Positions 2 through 10,013 of a stretch of DNA of 22,845 nucleotides are shown here, piece after piece (the first letter of the stretch is position 1; every line of letters begins with the position of its first letter). This DNA comes from a virus: positions 1 through 22,845 of IMG/VR virus record IMGVR_UViG_3300012925_000016; one strand, given 5' to 3'. The notes under the pieces were generated by a model. The model was given only the letters and a program-made list of their open reading frames with translations. It was not told where the DNA came from and did no database searches. The position numbers and the translations under genes were made by a program.

Positions 2-214
2 GGCGATCTCATCCAGGTCGAGGACAGCAACGGCGTCTCCCGCAGGGCGTTCAAGCTGGAGGACGGCCTGGATTGGTGGGCTGCAAAGTCGGCTCGGGCG
101 GCCGAGCGCAAGGCGAACGCCGCTTCGAAGAAGGCTGCGCCGAAGAAGTCGGACAACCTGCAGGCTGGTCCCGCGGGCGAGTCGGACGATGAGGTCGCCG
201 AAGAGGCGGAGTGA
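2..214 (+). CDS. C-terminal end of an unidentified phage protein (partial)
   Basis: This is an open frame entering from the left edge and ending in TGA at 212-214, leaving 70 residues. The first part (GDLIQVEDSNGVSRRAFKLE) looks like the end of a folded domain. It is followed by an Ala/Lys-rich stretch with KKAAPKK and then a strongly acidic end (SDDEVAEEAE). Such a basic-then-acidic disordered tail is common in phage nucleic-acid-binding or structural proteins, but the family cannot be recognised from this fragment. It is the last protein gene before the large non-coding region, which lies on the same strand. No terminator with a U-tract separates the two, so readthrough into the RNA is possible. 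Confidence 0.7.
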   Translation, partial: GDLIQVEDSNGVSRRAFKLEDGLDWWAAKSARAAERKANAASKKAAPKKSDNLQAGPAGESDDEVAEEAE

Positions 215-264
215 AACGTCGGCGGTGAGGAGTGTTGTCGACAAGCCCTCCTCATCGTCGGTCA

Positions 265-364
265 AGCCCAATAGCTCAGTGGCAGAGCATCGCATCACCC
301 GGCCAGAGGCACCCAGGTGCCGAGGAGTGATGAGAAGACGGGGGTTCGATTCCTCTAAGGGCAC
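265..364 (+). other. tRNA-like domain, not a canonical tRNA
   Basis: The D arm is textbook: TA then GCTC (274-277) paired with GAGC (285-288) around AGTGGCA. The T arm is also standard: GGGGG (340-344), loop TTCGATT, CCTCT (352-356), with two G-U pairs. The acceptor is degraded: GCCC (266-269) pairs with GGGC (359-362), but the inner two positions and the outermost one do not pair. Between the two arms are 51 nt instead of the usual 23 or so, and no register gives a 5-bp anticodon stem with a 7-nt loop. That segment instead forms CATCAC/GTGATG (293-298/327-332) around a GGCAC/GTGCC hairpin (308-312/317-321). It is therefore probably a tRNA mimic built into the larger RNA, not a decoding tRNA. 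Confidence 0.55.
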
Positions 365-887
365 AAGGTAGGCACACTCGTTCCCCGGGATTGTGCCTAC
401 CGGAAGCAGGCGACTGAAACTCCCTAACCCTCGGACGTTAGCGTAAGCAACGTTACAGTGGATCGGAAAGCCAGTCGCCGTTAGCAGGGAAGTACAGGCT
501 GATTACCTGTCGAAGTCGGCTCATCACCGGCGAAGTGCTAACGTTGATCGGATGCAGTGTCAACCGACACAATAGCAGCTTCCCGTTAGCGGACCTGAAA
601 GCGTCGGTACTGTAAATCCCTTCCGGTACCGACCCCGAGTCAGGTCTGTGGAGCGTTACCCGAAATGCTTGCCCCCGTGAGCATGGTCGGCAGCCTCAGA
701 TGTACTTCGCGGGATGGAGTACATCGGTCCGTTGCACAACCCCAACTGTGCCCCCCGTGCGGACGGTTCGAGTCAGGCTAACGCGCTGGAGCTCTTCACG
801 CCCATCACCTAATGTCTTCCCGAGAGCATAAGGTCAACTGGCATGTTGAGCTCCTTCAACCCGGTGGGGATCGGGATGGGAGATAAG

Positions 888-947
888 GCCCGCAATGTTA
901 CACGGCGTCAGCATCGGCGTAGCGGTGACATTGCGGGCTTTCTTTTT
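888..947 (+). terminator. Intrinsic terminator of the large RNA
   Basis: A perfect 11-bp stem pairs GCCCGCAATGT (888-898) with ACATTGCGGGC (928-938). It is followed directly by the T-rich tract TTTCTTTTT (939-947). The loop can form an additional CAC/GTG pairing (901-903/925-927). The hairpin lies just before the promoter of the next operon, so it insulates the RNA unit from the genes at 1003-1972. Confidence 0.88.
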
Positions 948-951
948 CCTC

Positions 952-981
952 TTGATTTCCCGTTAGGGGTTCCTATATAAT
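952..981 (+). promoter_or_regulatory. Promoter P1 (TTGATT-18-TATAAT)
   Basis: The -35 box TTGATT lies at 952-957 and the -10 box TATAAT at 976-981, with an 18-bp spacer. It starts just after the terminator U-tract and precedes the strong ribosome site AAGGAGGTAA of the gene at 1003. It is one of five promoters in the window with the same spacing. The spacer contains CCCGTTAGGGG (959-969), a relative of a motif repeated inside the upstream RNA. Confidence 0.85.
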
Positions 982-1002: not shown

Positions 1003-1413
1003 ATGACTGACCCGATGCCGCAGATGTTCAACCACTGCGTTCAGGTGTACAACGCTATGCACAAGACGGCGGAGCTGGTTCAGAATGGCGAGGGTCCGCC
1101 TCGACGCATCTGGACCGGCTTTCTGACGAAGCTTATCAACGAGGACTGCAAGCTTGCCGTTCCATACTTCACGGGTGTTCGCAACAACTTGATGCGTATG
1201 GGTTGCATCGCACAGATCACCCGCGGAGGCGGCACGCACCCTTCGATTTGGGAGTTGATCACAGCCCCGACTGAGGAGCTGTTCAACGCCAAGGGCAAGG
1301 TTCGTACCAACAGCAAGGCGTCGCAGCTGCAGGGACAGCTTGCAGACGTGAACACACGGCTCGAGCGTGTGGAGCGCATGCTCGCCAACTTGGCGTCGGA
1401 GGAGGCATCGTGA
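1003..1413 (+). CDS. Winged-helix-like protein with C-terminal coiled coil
   Basis: This 136-residue protein starts at ATG after an excellent ribosome site (AAGGAGGTAAGTAA) and is the first gene behind promoter P1. Residues of roughly 35-85, including YFTGVRNNLMRMGCIAQITR followed by a Gly/Thr-rich turn and SIWELIT, look like a helix-turn-helix followed by a beta wing. This suggests a small DNA-binding domain. Residues of roughly 100-130 (LQGQLADVNTRLERVERMLA) form a heptad-like coiled coil, probably for dimerisation. A role as a transcriptional regulator is inferred from this layout. The stop overlaps the GTG of the DUF397 gene, and HTH plus DUF397 pairs are a known actinobacterial regulatory arrangement, although those partners are usually XRE-type. 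Confidence 0.8.
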   Translation: MTDPMPQMFNHCVQVYNAMHKTAELVQNGEGPPRRIWTGFLTKLINEDCKLAVPYFTGVRNNLMRMGCIAQITRGGGTHPSIWELITAPTEELFNAKGKVRTNSKASQLQGQLADVNTRLERVERMLANLASEEAS

Positions 1414-1649
1414 TTCCACAGGGCGATGATGGCAGACCAGGAAGCGGCAAGATCAGTAGTTTCTGCGAGGATGGTGGCTGCGTGAAGGTGTCCAAGGACC
1501 CACTCACTGACCTCATCACCGTGAGTGACGAAGACGGTAGCGAGGCCTCTTTCTTCTTCCACGAGTGGGATGCTTTCATCAAGGGCGTCAAGGCAGGGGA
1601 GTTCGACCTTGACAAGCTCGCCGAGCCGACCGGGACGAGGGAGGGCTAG
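1410..1649 (+). CDS. DUF397-family protein (BldB/WhiJ-partner type)
   Basis: This 79-residue protein starts at GTG in a 4-nt GTGA overlap with the gene upstream. The core fits the actinobacterial DUF397 pattern: SSFCEDGGCVKV, then a beta strand ending in VSDEDG, then FFFHEWDAFIKGVKAGEFD, matching the family's typical W-x-x-F-x-x-G-V-K-x-G-E-F ending. DUF397 includes BldB and the small partners of XRE regulators in Streptomyces, where they act in development, antibiotic control or toxin-antitoxin-like pairs. In this phage it directly follows a DNA-binding-like protein, so a regulator/partner pair is plausible. The family call is strong; the function here is inferred. Confidence 0.82.
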   Translation: MIPQGDDGRPGSGKISSFCEDGGCVKVSKDPLTDLITVSDEDGSEASFFFHEWDAFIKGVKAGEFDLDKLAEPTGTREG

Positions 1650-1972
1650 TGGCTGAGTCGGAACTAGAACGCCGTCAGCGGTGCAGCAAGTGTGGTGAGT
1701 CAGGTGAGCAAGAGGGCATCAGACCCACTCAGGACTTCACCAAAAAGGCGATTACCATGATTTGTAAGAACCAGCGATGCGTCTGGTTCGAGACCGGATG
1801 GGTGATCACCGTCATGCTCGACGGAAGCCTTCCCGCCGAGGAGGCGCCTGAGATCATTCGGGCCAAGCCGAAGGCATACCCGGTTCTGGATCGGGGAGTC
1901 TCCGGTGATGAACGTGAGCGGCAGATCAAGGCACTATACGGATCGTATGGGGAAGACATCAAGCGTAGCTAA
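1649..1972 (+). CDS. Small zinc-ribbon protein
   Basis: This 107-residue protein has a GTG start that shares one base with the upstream TAG. Four cysteines in the first 45 residues (CSKCGESG, then CKNQRC) form a C-x2-C...C-x4-C zinc ribbon. The rest contains a hydrophobic beta segment (WFETGWVITVML) and a charged helical C-terminus. No specific family is recognised. It is the last gene of the P1 operon, and a 13-bp hairpin follows its stop. It may bind nucleic acid or a host protein, but nothing in the sequence decides that. Confidence 0.78.
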   Translation: MAESELERRQRCSKCGESGEQEGIRPTQDFTKKAITMICKNQRCVWFETGWVITVMLDGSLPAEEAPEIIRAKPKAYPVLDRGVSGDERERQIKALYGSYGEDIKRS

Positions 1973-2078
1973 GTCTAAGCTAGTCTACGAGAGTGAATCC
2001 TAAGCCTCAACGAGTTACATAGGGGCTTAGGATTCATCTCAGTAGAACTACCTTAGATTTAGTCTATTCGATAGTCTA
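1970..2078 (+). repeat. Cluster of TAGTCTA motifs in the intergenic gap
   Basis: TAGTCTA occurs exactly at 1981-1987, 2060-2066 and 2072-2078, with a near match TAAGTCTA at 1970-1977. The last two copies are 12 bp apart. The core TAGACT (the complement of AGTCTA) recurs in two other intergenic gaps, 13779-13852 and 19332-19425. This may be a phage operator or other regulatory site, but the number of copies is small and no binding protein is identified. Confidence 0.4.
1994..2036 (+). terminator. 13-bp hairpin, probable terminator of the P1 operon
   Basis: TGAATCCTAAGCC (1994-2006) pairs perfectly with GGCTTAGGATTCA (2024-2036) over a 17-nt loop. It lies 20 bp after the stop of the zinc-ribbon gene and before promoter P2. 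There is no U-tract after it (TCTCAGTAG follows), so it may act as a weak or factor-assisted terminator or as an mRNA-stabilising hairpin. Confidence 0.6.
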
Positions 2079-2115
2079 GGAGCTAGCTGAGCTTAGAGCT
2101 CTCGAGCTTCGTGAC

Positions 2116-2145
2116 TTGAAAGGTACTTTGAGGTACCTATATAAT
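2116..2145 (+). promoter_or_regulatory. Promoter P2 (TTGAAA-18-TATAAT)
   Basis: TTGAAA lies at 2116-2121 and TATAAT at 2140-2145, with an 18-bp spacer. The ribosome site GAGGAGGAAAAG follows before the ATG at 2166. Box sequence and spacing match the other four promoters. Confidence 0.85.
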
Positions 2146-2165
2146 TATAGAGAGGAGGAAAAGAA

Positions 2166-2489
2166 ATGGTGAACAAGCTCACTGCCATGAAGAACGTGCT
2201 GGAACAGATGCGAATGTACCAGAATCTGCTGGAGGAGCTGTCAGAGGCAGCCGCAGAAGAATTCGGTCTGGAAGGCTCGGTTATGGACGAAGAGGGCTAC
2301 AGGCCCATGACGATCATGAGTATTCTCGGCCAACAGGTCCGTCTTGGCGAAGATTACACTAAGGCGTTCTACCCCAAAGGGGACAGCGGCGCGTTCAAGA
2401 TCGCGATCGACCCGGAAGCGCCGACCGAAGGTTTCCTGAAGAACCATCCGATGCTGAAGTCACGCCGTGAACTCGACGAGTCGGTATGA
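2166..2489 (+). CDS. Unidentified 107-residue phage protein
   Basis: The ATG start is preceded by a strong purine-rich ribosome site (GAGAGGAGGAAAAG), and this is the first gene behind promoter P2. Residues 1-40 form a long amphipathic helix (VLEQMRMYQNLLEELSEAAA). The rest is mixed and ends with a basic/acidic helix (SRRELDESV). There are no cysteines, membrane segments or recognisable catalytic motifs. It overlaps the next gene by ATGA. The function is unknown. Confidence 0.75.
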   Translation: MVNKLTAMKNVLEQMRMYQNLLEELSEAAAEEFGLEGSVMDEEGYRPMTIMSILGQQVRLGEDYTKAFYPKGDSGAFKIAIDPEAPTEGFLKNHPMLKSRRELDESV

Positions 2490-2779
2490 ACATCGAAGAG
2501 ATGCTGGCAGCGATGGAAGCCGACGAGCGTGAGGATGCTCTCGAGGAGCAGACGACCGCTTCGATCAGTGACTACGCGCGTGCGCGGGGGTTCAGACCAC
2601 AACTAGTTCACTATCACATCAGGCGCAGACACTTCCAGAAAGTCAGGTGTGCCTGTGGACGATTGGTCATCAACATCGCCGAGGCCGACGCCGTCATGGT
2701 TAGAGGGCGGCAAGAAGCTATACCGGAGACGGAAGAAGTGGCAGGGAGCAGACTGGACACCTCCGAGCCAGAGTGCTGA
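2486..2779 (+). CDS. Small helix-turn-helix-like protein
   Basis: This 97-residue protein has its ATG in a 4-nt overlap with the gene upstream. Residues of roughly 27-50 (SISDYARARGFRPQLVHYHI) look like a helix-turn-helix whose second helix would read the DNA. The RRRH basic patch and a short C-x-C beta hairpin (VRCACGRLVINI) follow. The layout resembles excisionase/MerR-like or terminase-small-subunit-like HTH domains, without a decisive match. Its 3' third overlaps another frame that encodes a zinc-finger-like protein (2649-3017), so the exact end of functional coding here deserves caution. Confidence 0.68.
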   Translation: MNIEEMLAAMEADEREDALEEQTTASISDYARARGFRPQLVHYHIRRRHFQKVRCACGRLVINIAEADAVMVRGRQEAIPETEEVAGSRLDTSEPEC

Positions 2780-3017
2780 TCCGCAAGATGGTAAGTACTG
2801 TAGGGCATGTCACAAGTGGCACGGCTACAGCAACTTAGGCATGAAGCACGAGAAGCGGGGTGAGGCATGGGTGTCACTCTGGATTTGTCGTGTAACGGGT
2901 AACGTCATCGGCGAATTATGGTTAGGTGCTAATGTCACAGATACCAATTCCGGATCTGACTCCGGAACAGCAAGCAGCAATCCAGAAGGATCTGGACCTG
3001 ATCAACAGGGAGTTTAA
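2649..3017 (+). CDS. Zinc-finger-like protein in an overlapping frame
   Basis: The frame runs from GTG 2649 to a stop at 3015-3017 (122 residues). It overlaps the HTH-like gene by 131 nt and the next gene by 86 nt. The middle (bases of about 2787-2925) has clear protein character: KYCRACHKWHGY, then MKHEKRG, then WVSLWICRV, which gives C-x2-C-x2-WH...C candidate zinc ligands and regularly spaced aromatics. Without it, 2780-2931 would be empty in an otherwise gapless operon. The only in-frame starts are GTG 2649 and GTG 2655, and neither has a good ribosome site. A frameshifted fusion with the upstream gene is an alternative. Existence of a coding segment is likely; the exact boundaries are not. 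Confidence 0.5.
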   Translation: MPVDDWSSTSPRPTPSWLEGGKKLYRRRKKWQGADWTPPSQSADPQDGKYCRACHKWHGYSNLGMKHEKRGEAWVSLWICRVTGNVIGELWLGANVTDTNSGSDSGTASSNPEGSGPDQQGV

Positions 3018-3315
3018 GATTTGGGTAGAGATCGATATGACCCTTGTACCTCTCGCACTTTCAGCCATGGCAGAGTTTCTATTCATACAGGGTCAAGATA
3101 GTGCGAAGGAGCTCTACCAGGAAGGCAAGATCGACGCAGCTGCACGTATGCAGGTAAGTACGATTATCAATGCGCTTTCGTTCGGCATGTACCTCGGCAA
3201 GCAAGGCCACGACGACAAGAGCTTTGCACAGGTGATCAGCACAACGCTATCTGCAGAAGACGAGAGGAGGCTACTCAGTGCTGACTCTGGAGACGCAACT
3301 GAAGAAGGGGTATGA
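2932..3315 (+). CDS. Unidentified mostly helical phage protein
   Basis: This protein has 127 residues from ATG 2932; GTG 2926 is an alternative two codons upstream. It is mostly alpha-helical: PDLTPEQQAAIQKDLDLINR, then a hydrophobic helix LVPLALSAMAEFLFIQG, then EGKIDAAARMQVSTIINALS. The hydrophobic stretch is too polar at its ends to call a membrane span with confidence. Its 3' end overlaps the helicase gene by 38 nt and contains that gene's ribosome site, suggesting translational coupling. The family is not recognised. Confidence 0.75.
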   Translation: MSQIPIPDLTPEQQAAIQKDLDLINREFKIWVEIDMTLVPLALSAMAEFLFIQGQDSAKELYQEGKIDAAARMQVSTIINALSFGMYLGKQGHDDKSFAQVISTTLSAEDERRLLSADSGDATEEGV

Positions 3316-7073: not shown

Positions 7074-7793
7074 GTGGACATGACACTACCCCTCAACGAG
7101 GTCTTCGGTCCGACTATCCAGGGTGAGGGCCCGTACATGGGACGAGTTGTCAACTTCATCCGTCTGGGTCTGTGCAACTTGCACTGTACCAACTGCGACA
7201 CGAAGCAGACCTGGGACAAGGCCAACTACAACCTGGAGAAGGAGAATCCTGCCGTCGAGGCTGAAGCGATTGCTGACGCGAACGACGCCTTAGGTAGCTG
7301 GGCGTCCATTGTGGTCATCTCGGGCGGTGAGCCCTTGATCCACCAGGACAAAGCAGGCTTTAGGGCGCTACTACGAACCCTAGTTCATGACTGTTTCGAC
7401 GTCCACATTGAGACCAATGGCACTCGACTAGTTCGTCCAGAGGTTGCTGACCTCGTCTCCCACTTCTCCGTGTCCCCCAAGATCACCTCCGCACTTATCT
7501 CCCCTCTGGATGCTTCTTCGAAGCGTATCAAGATGGGTACTCTCAGGCAGTATGCAAACTACGTGAAGCAAGGGAAGGCCTGCTTCAAGATCGTCTGCGC
7601 CTCTATCGATGACGTGGATACGGCACTTGCGTTATGCGAAGAGCTAAACTGCAACCGTAATGACTTCTGGATCATGCCAATGGGTGCGACTCCGAATACC
7701 ACAAACCAGAGTACCAATGCTGTTCTGGAGCGCGCTCTTTACCATGGCATGAGCTTCTCACCGCGGCTGCATATTCTGACCGGTCTCAAGTGA
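7074..7793 (+). CDS. queE: 7-carboxy-7-deazaguanine synthase QueE
   Basis: This 239-residue radical SAM enzyme converts CPH4 to 7-carboxy-7-deazaguanine, the third step from GTP to preQ0. The QueE opening (LNEVFGPTIQGEGPYMGR) is followed by the CX3CX2C iron-sulfur motif with C34, C38 and C41 (GLCNLHCTNCDTKQTWD). The SAM-binding GGEP occurs as VISGGEPLIH, and IETNGT follows. Length is typical. GTG 7074 is preferred over ATG 7080 because AGGAG at 7064-7068 gives 5-nt spacing. The C-terminus HILTGLK corresponds to the family's conserved end. Together with FolE, QueD, QueC and the DpdA-like protein in this window it forms a DNA 7-deazaguanine pathway. It ends the P3 operon. Confidence 0.94.
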   Translation: MDMTLPLNEVFGPTIQGEGPYMGRVVNFIRLGLCNLHCTNCDTKQTWDKANYNLEKENPAVEAEAIADANDALGSWASIVVISGGEPLIHQDKAGFRALLRTLVHDCFDVHIETNGTRLVRPEVADLVSHFSVSPKITSALISPLDASSKRIKMGTLRQYANYVKQGKACFKIVCASIDDVDTALALCEELNCNRNDFWIMPMGATPNTTNQSTNAVLERALYHGMSFSPRLHILTGLK

Positions 7794-9161: not shown

Positions 9162-9244
9162 GTCATACGCTCTACCGGCTTTACTGCATAGTAGCCGTCC
9201 TGGTTCTAGTCGTCGTCTTCACATATGGAGCGTGCCGTGCCTGA
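9158..9244 (+). CDS. 28-residue single-span membrane peptide
   Basis: GTG 9158 overlaps the nuclease stop by GTGA, and the frame ends in TGA at 9242-9244. It fills what would otherwise be a gap between two tightly packed genes. The peptide starts MSHTLYRLYC and has one unbroken hydrophobic run (IVAVLVLVVVFTYGA) flanked by arginines, giving a single transmembrane helix. Its stop overlaps the start region of the Sak4-like gene. The function is unknown; its size and topology fit small regulatory or lysis-type membrane peptides. Overlap architecture and composition are the only evidence. Confidence 0.6.
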   Translation: MSHTLYRLYCIVAVLVLVVVFTYGACRA

Positions 9245-10013
9245 ATTACTCACCCCGTCCAACTTTGCCGGCTTGAAGGTATTCAAGGCAGGGCAGAGAG
9301 AATCGCACCTGAACATTCTGGTCTATGGCGACAGCGGTGTAGGCAAGACCCGCCTGGCCGGATCAGCTGATGACGTGCCTGAGATGCGTTCCGTCCTCGT
9401 TGTGGACTTCGAAGGTGGAAGCGAAACCCTCAAGCACACCTACCCGAACTGTGATACCGTACGTGTGACGTCCTGGAAGGACATGCAGCTCGTCTACGAT
9501 GAGCTGTACGCAGGCAATCACAAGTACCGCACTATCATTCTGGACTCGCTGACCGAGGTCCAGAAGTTCAACATGTACGGTATCATGCAGAAGCTCGTCG
9601 AGGACAAGGGCGAGAGCCGCGACGTCGATGTACCGTCCATGCGTGAGTGGGGCATCAACTTGGAGCAGATGCGAAAGTTCGTCCGCGCGTTCCGTGACCT
9701 GCCCTACAACACCATCTTCACAGCACTGGTCAAGGTCGAGAAGGATCAGAAGACAGGTATGCTCATTAAGGAGCCCAGCCTGTCGGGTAAGTTGGCCAAG
9801 GAGGTTGCTGCCTTCCTCGACATCGTCGTCTTCATGTACATGCGTGAGATGGAAGTCGACAACGAGACTCGGCAGACCCGGCTCGTGCTGTCCCAGGCTA
9901 CGGATACCTGCACTGCAAAGGACCGTACTGGAAAGCTTCCGCAGGTCATGATCGAACCGACCATGGCGGAAATCATGAAATACATCAACCAGGAAAACGA
10001 AACGGGAAACTAA
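9237..10013 (+). CDS. Sak4-like RecA-type single-strand annealing ATPase
   Basis: This protein has 258 residues from GTG 9237, chosen because GGAG at 9227-9230 fits as ribosome site; ATG 9225 would add four residues. The Walker A is GDSGVGKT (residues 31-38), preceded by LNILVY. VLVVDFEGGSET follows, and the Walker B-like strand is YRTIILDSLTE (D103). The later part has TALVKVEKD and LSGKLAKEVAAFLDIVV, the AAA_24/Sak4 pattern of short RecA-core proteins in phages. These bind single-stranded DNA and promote annealing with a partner SSB. A DUF669 SSB-like gene follows one base after the stop, and a Cas4-like nuclease precedes it, making a compact phage recombination module. Confidence 0.9.
   Translation: MPELLTPSNFAGLKVFKAGQRESHLNILVYGDSGVGKTRLAGSADDVPEMRSVLVVDFEGGSETLKHTYPNCDTVRVTSWKDMQLVYDELYAGNHKYRTIILDSLTEVQKFNMYGIMQKLVEDKGESRDVDVPSMREWGINLEQMRKFVRAFRDLPYNTIFTALVKVEKDQKTGMLIKEPSLSGKLAKEVAAFLDIVVFMYMREMEVDNETRQTRLVLSQATDTCTAKDRTGKLPQVMIEPTMAEIMKYINQENETGN

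Follow-up and report, generated by a model that had tools for sequence, protein, structure and literature searches.

The locus and its flanking genes

The window, i.e. the whole stretch of DNA analyzed here, is a 22,845-base linear virus record in IMG/VR (IMGVR_UViG_3300012925_000016). Protein matches assign it to the phages of Actinobacteria. Searches of a phage nucleotide database in near and distant mode yielded no isolated phage matching the window DNA. An earlier inspection of the letters had placed a large structured RNA in a gene-free stretch at 226-947. The open reading frame list of the window shows no plausible gene between 215 and 1002, and the gap exists as described. The features of the locus are summarized in Table 1.

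Table 1. Features of the RNA and its immediate surroundings in window coordinates.
Feature	Position	Strand	Basis and details
'up' gene, 3' end	2..214	+	ORF; 70 aa visible, with a charged tail; co-directional with the RNA
5' hairpin	226..254	+	MFE; 7 bp basal stem; equivalent GC-rich hairpin in L009, L013, L025 (alignment)
tRNA-like cloverleaf	266..363	+	Rfam tRNA score; MFE cloverleaf in homologues
Extended arm replacing the anticodon arm	292..333	+	Outer stem covaries (CATCAC/GTGATG, CCCTTTG/CAAAGGG, CAATGCACTT/AAGTGCATTG)
10-bp hairpin 3' of the tRNA-like	367..401	+	MFE
Middle module X	409..479	+	Basal helix GGCGACTG/CAGTCGCC; conserved TAACCCTCGGACGT; holds GTAA hairpin
Middle module Y	480..590	+	CAGGGAAGTACRGGCT...; common to window and L015 only
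Conserved 3' core, span	592-880	+	Kept in all homologues
Core domain 1	592..646	+	Stem 592-598/640-646, inner hairpin 605-611/625-631, conserved loop AATYCCCTTC; both stems covary
Core domain 2	653..784	+	Invariant helix 653-658/779-784 around hairpins 665-684, 700-724, 727-764
Core domain 3	788..854	+	Stem GGAGCTC/GAGCTCC; GAAGCAC/GTGCTTC in L015
Small hairpin, GGGG loop	860..875	+	Stem covaries
Terminator-type hairpin	888..947	+	11-bp stem 888-898/928-938 covaries almost throughout; then TTTCTTTTT
Invariant 22-nt loop in terminator hairpin	903..924	+	CGGCGTC(T)AGCATCGGCGTAGCG
Promoter-like site of the next operon	952..981	+	TTGATT-18-TATAAT; conserved in homologues
'DP' gene	1003..1413	+	ORF; 136 aa; small, no family matched

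Orthologues of the 'up' gene precede the equivalent locus in six other contigs (L007, L013, L027, L038, L039 and L048). For the orthologue at L013 344-859 the prediction comprises a compact winged-helix-like domain together with a long helix and charged tail. A fold search with the protein gave weak matches, the best with a Z of 4.9 to a viral packaging protein, followed by BldC, which is of the winged-helix type. As these structural matches are too weak, the protein is left unnamed here. Downstream of the gap, the promoter-like site would serve the following gene and be separate from the RNA. It belongs to a promoter-type motif, TTGATnnCCC...CTATATAAT, of which three copies lie on the plus strand (952, 5142 and 7809); its spacer holds a conserved CCC...GG element and equivalents occur in relatives.

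Two further observations concern the rest of the window. A second gene-free stretch at 1966-2066 forms a near-perfect extended hairpin of 101 nt (-52.8 kcal/mol, z -8.2). In close relatives it is 69-75% identical; AGTCTA-type repeats surround it, and promoter-like sites lie a short way downstream. Between 7074 and 15021 the window encodes a radical SAM protein (QueE-like), QueC, a PTPS protein (QueD-like) and GTP cyclohydrolase I, i.e. genes of a 7-deazaguanine-type base synthesis, which suggests modified DNA or tRNA.

Homologues of the RNA

Relatives of the window were gathered by a scan with the AAA ATPase protein encoded at 9225-10013. The gap sequence was recovered by blastn at 69-73% identity in L007, L009, L013 and L015. 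L025 and L027 were found with a pattern based on the best-conserved block. Hence, the RNA lies at the equivalent place in six related IMG/VR contigs. In L007, L013, L025 and L027 it is flanked by the same two genes, and the contigs of L009 and L015 begin close to it. Its length across the lineage is about 600-900 bases. Since the RNA regions of L007 and L009 are identical and the cores of L025 and L027 are nearly the same, five clearly distinct cores are available; these share about 70% identity with invariant blocks of 15-22 nt and all belong to one clade.

Within the collections scanned, wider searches returned the same clade. Two further sequence patterns gave no additional true member, and a covariance model (R1) matched the close clade only, with the core absent from the contigs L017, L018, L021 and L022; matches of 7-9 bits in L007 and L011 were discarded as noise. 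Scanning the collection for the terminator loop retrieved this clade plus one coding coincidence, L050, which was rejected as a homologue because the match lies inside coding sequence. A first pattern scan of genome contigs had no match, and a second scan, with an AAA ATPase alignment, returned only L051, which is the L022 contig ('Bacterium UASB270'). The DP protein as sole query gave no match. All homologues are metagenomic, and searches of the phage nucleotide database found no isolate carrying the RNA; with the L013 RNA as query, the sole match was to Gordonia phages, over 23 nt of a tRNA T arm. The contigs bearing the RNA are a soil phage lineage.

Evidence for the fold

The plus strand of the gap, to which the fold had been assigned, is more stable than its shuffles (z -4.8, compared to -3.2 on the minus strand). 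This excess stability is nearly matched by one other tile of the window. Moreover, the number of perfect helices, which had been taken as a sign of structure, proved uninformative, as the RNA holds 31 helices of at least 4 bp and shuffled sequences hold 31 on average. The single-sequence fold alone is therefore weak evidence, and the comparison of homologues is decisive.

For this comparison the cores were aligned by anchoring on conserved blocks, and structural information was not used. RNAalifold assigned the anchored alignment -101.4 kcal/mol, compared to -53.1 ± 5.5 kcal/mol in column shuffles (z -8.9); for the 3' part of the RNA the fold reached z -10.7. On the plus strand the energy was -101 kcal/mol with a covariation term of 4.4, whereas the minus strand gave -89 kcal/mol and -0.4. 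A plain MAFFT alignment of the core showed no significant fold (z -0.8) because hairpins were misaligned, which the anchoring mended. In a hand-made helix table we counted 44 doubly compensated pairs in 12 helices; they occur in the core helices, in the terminator stem and in the extended arm that belongs to the tRNA-like. In a model-fitted alignment 91.5% of the cells were paired, compared to 81.0% in shuffled and 25-36% in slid controls, and 16 pairs had changed on both sides, compared to 6.0 and 1-3, respectively. Such an alignment is biased toward the structure under test; the slid controls are nonetheless far off. The G-U pairs present on the plus strand argue that the RNA is encoded there. 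Thus, the gap at 226-947 contains a real structured RNA of the plus strand. Covariation in homologues, the test that the original prediction had itself proposed, supports a large and highly structured phage RNA with its own terminator.

Architecture of the RNA

The RNA consists of a tRNA-like head, a variable middle part and a conserved core followed by the terminator. The head, which the original prediction had overlooked, is a fixed part of every homologue. The Rfam tRNA model scored it with 25.3 bits in the window, compared to a cut-off of 29, and with 55.7 bits in L009, 48.4 in L025, 38.7 in L013 and 34.6 in L015. In the homologues the minimum free energy structure takes a cloverleaf shape, in which D and T arms are present and a long stem occupies the place of the anticodon arm. 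A 7-nt anticodon loop on a 5-bp stem is missing in all homologues, which have the extended stem with an insert of about 30-45 nt instead. Since it has no anticodon loop, the tRNA-like cannot decode. The sequence of the extended stem is entirely different among the phages and its pairing is kept. The acceptor stem comprises 4 bp plus mismatches in the window and L013; only L009, L025 and L027 have all 7 bp. ARAGORN called no tRNA in the tRNA-likes of the window and the homologues. In L015 a second odd tRNA-like lies directly upstream of the first.

Between the tRNA-like and the core the window carries a hairpin, module X and module Y. The hairpin with a GUAA tetraloop that had been noted near 435-453 is indeed present in the sequence. 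Module X was also found in L007, L009, L025 and L027 and is absent from L013 and L015. L009, L025 and L027 combine X with the lack of Y, L015 has Y without X, and in L013 about 360 nt of different structure stand in for both modules.

All homologues share the core as well as the terminator and its invariant loop. Core domain 2 contains the motif GGTCGGCAGCCTCAG, and its inner hairpins covary. Its closing helix differs from the one originally put forward. The long-range helix 584-590/777-783 did not hold up in the comparison, as all seven pairs form only in the window, compared to six of seven in L013, four in L015 and three in L009, L025 and L027. The strand GCTAACGC and GCGTTA (653-658) are both invariant, and GCGTTA can pair with TAACGC at 779-784 in every homologue, which would enclose the multi-arm domain. 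Therefore, 653-658 is the likely partner of 779-784 in place of the long-range helix; as the pairing never varies, covariation lends it no support. The terminator that had been predicted to close the RNA is borne out by a G+C-rich hairpin (888-938) followed by the U run. A terminator scan with a loop limit of 8 missed it because its loop is about 29 nt long.

Comparison with known RNA families

Lax scans of the window, L013 and L009 with the whole Rfam library found no family in the RNA except the generic tRNA. The covariance model of GOLLD (RF02032) had no match at E<=10 in any of 14 records, i.e. the window and 13 related contigs. For ROOL (RF03087) none of seven records matched at E<=10, a scan whose sensitivity is unproven as control genomes were also negative, and with which the whole-library scans agree. 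Of the two options originally offered, a divergent member of these families or a new class, the results favor the latter, since the window and its homologues lack any match to GOLLD or ROOL at E<=10. A resemblance to a group I intron motif was dropped in the absence of an Rfam match.

In its layout the RNA resembles GOLLD in several respects. GOLLD and ROOL are phage RNAs which are often found near tRNA islands and both form RNA cages (PMC12286853). Like GOLLD, our RNA is encoded by a phage, measures at least several hundred nucleotides and lies in a tRNA-island setting (PMC12286853, PMC6582537). The 5' part of GOLLD is variable and at times includes tRNAs, and its 3' part is conserved (PMC12286853); accordingly, modules X and Y differ among our homologues and the core and terminator are conserved. 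An association with tRNA was also found, with a tRNA-like inside the RNA and tRNAs at the corresponding place in L039 and L048. A mycobacterial GOLLD contains a pseudo-tRNA (PMC6582537). In contrast to GOLLD, no homologue of our RNA lacks the tRNA-like, and a terminator whose loop is invariant forms the 3' end. With ROOL the RNA shares being a large phage or prophage RNA of the kind often located near tRNA islands, but it gives no match to the ROOL model.

The head resembles tRNA (RF00005) in its cloverleaf shape and in having a D arm and a T arm with T loop, and a distant relative has a tRNA array at the locus. Nevertheless, it differs from tRNA in the missing anticodon, the extended arm, the acceptor stem of 4 bp in the window and its connection to a conserved non-tRNA core. 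A tRNA-like end attached to a longer structured RNA is also known from tmRNA. However, the cloverleaf halves of the present RNA are not split by a long insert, and neither ARAGORN nor Rfam detected a tmRNA in the window.

tRNAs and tRNA-likes at the same locus in distant phages

More distant phages carry different RNA material between the same two flanking genes. The L039 locus, about 1,050 nt long, contains a true tRNA-Asp and long perfect helices as well as two tRNA-like folds, and the L038 locus, about 460 nt long, includes a tRNA-like sequence. In L048 a tRNA-like with extended arm is followed by a tRNA array. As the same two genes flank tRNA material in these three contigs, the giant RNA sits at a tRNA island, from which it may have arisen.

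A cloverleaf with such an extended arm, but no accompanying core, is also present in L048 and L020. In L020, a related phage, this tRNA-like (7124-7229) has its anticodon arm enlarged by a long insert; it follows a GGTAGGCA/TGCCTACC hairpin and lies at a locus different from that of the RNA. ARAGORN with introns allowed reads it as tRNA-Tyr with a 27-nt intron. In L048, the spacers of the tRNA array at 1240-3140 are closed by long perfect helices such as GGACTAGATCCTAG/CTAGGATCTAGTCC, which are possibly processing signals between the tRNAs.

Discussion

Since compensatory changes support its fold and no catalogued family matches it, the RNA described here appears to be a new giant RNA of phages, comparable to GOLLD and ROOL. 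We give even chances to the reading that it represents a new family of large phage RNA with a tRNA-like head, interchangeable modules and a conserved core, acting as a scaffold similar to GOLLD and ROOL. As the layout is shared and the sequence models are not, we consider that it probably works like these RNAs and refrain from assigning it to either family. The RNA would be co-transcribed with the upstream 'up' gene and end at the terminator. RNase P and a 3'-end nuclease of the host would then most likely recognize the tRNA-like and thereby fix the mature 5' end. The core would act as a free-standing RNA scaffold, comparable to the RNA-only cages into which GOLLD and ROOL assemble, the GOLLD cage being a 14-mer. 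A more specific and rather doubtful proposal is that the RNA self-assembles, each subunit contributing an anticodon-less tRNA mimic, and that the assembly displays or captures tRNA-handling factors of the host during infection.

The locus could also be a decayed tRNA island of degenerate tRNA genes and structured spacers, whose fold is a leftover of array processing. The L048 array with its long perfect-helix spacers, the tRNA and tRNA-likes of L039 and the acceptor stem reduced to 4 bp in the window are in line with such decay. However, decay would not be expected to maintain compensatory changes across extended arm, core and terminator stem, nor invariant blocks of 15-22 nt within a core of about 70% identity, and the core lies outside any tRNA. 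We therefore regard this explanation as improbable. Just as improbable is that the tRNA-like is the working end, an anticodon-less decoy or substitute against tRNA-attacking defences or toxins, with the remainder as its carrier. Phage tRNAs have been described to counter tRNA-degrading defences (PMC11555353), and the extended-arm cloverleaf occurs without the core in L048 and L020. Nevertheless, the published rescue by phage tRNAs was abolished by altering the anticodon or a stem-loop (PMC11555353). Since that rescue depends on the anticodon and the tRNA-like has none, a decoy would need a different mode of action; moreover, the conserved core would be left unexplained.

The position directly upstream of a conserved gene of the same direction, together with the terminator at the end, would fit a long 5' leader or attenuator controlling this gene. 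Riboswitch leaders are rarely so long, though, and a conserved promoter-like site separates the terminator from the downstream gene, which makes a leader very unlikely; nor did an unsystematic inspection bring an alternative antiterminator pairing to light. A DNA element such as a replication or packaging site, whose inverted repeats mimic RNA structure, would suit the intergenic position and the small, possibly DNA-binding DP protein encoded next to it, but is hardly credible given the strand asymmetry of fold and covariation, the G-U pairs on the plus strand and the shared direction of the tRNA-like fold and the U-run terminator.

Apart from ribosomes and ribozymes, few RNAs are known to be this large and complex. 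An unrelated further family that shares the setting and layout of GOLLD and ROOL and includes a fixed tRNA-like would suggest that tRNA islands repeatedly yield giant RNAs. Furthermore, the RNA would link tRNA processing or mimicry to giant-RNA function in a testable form.
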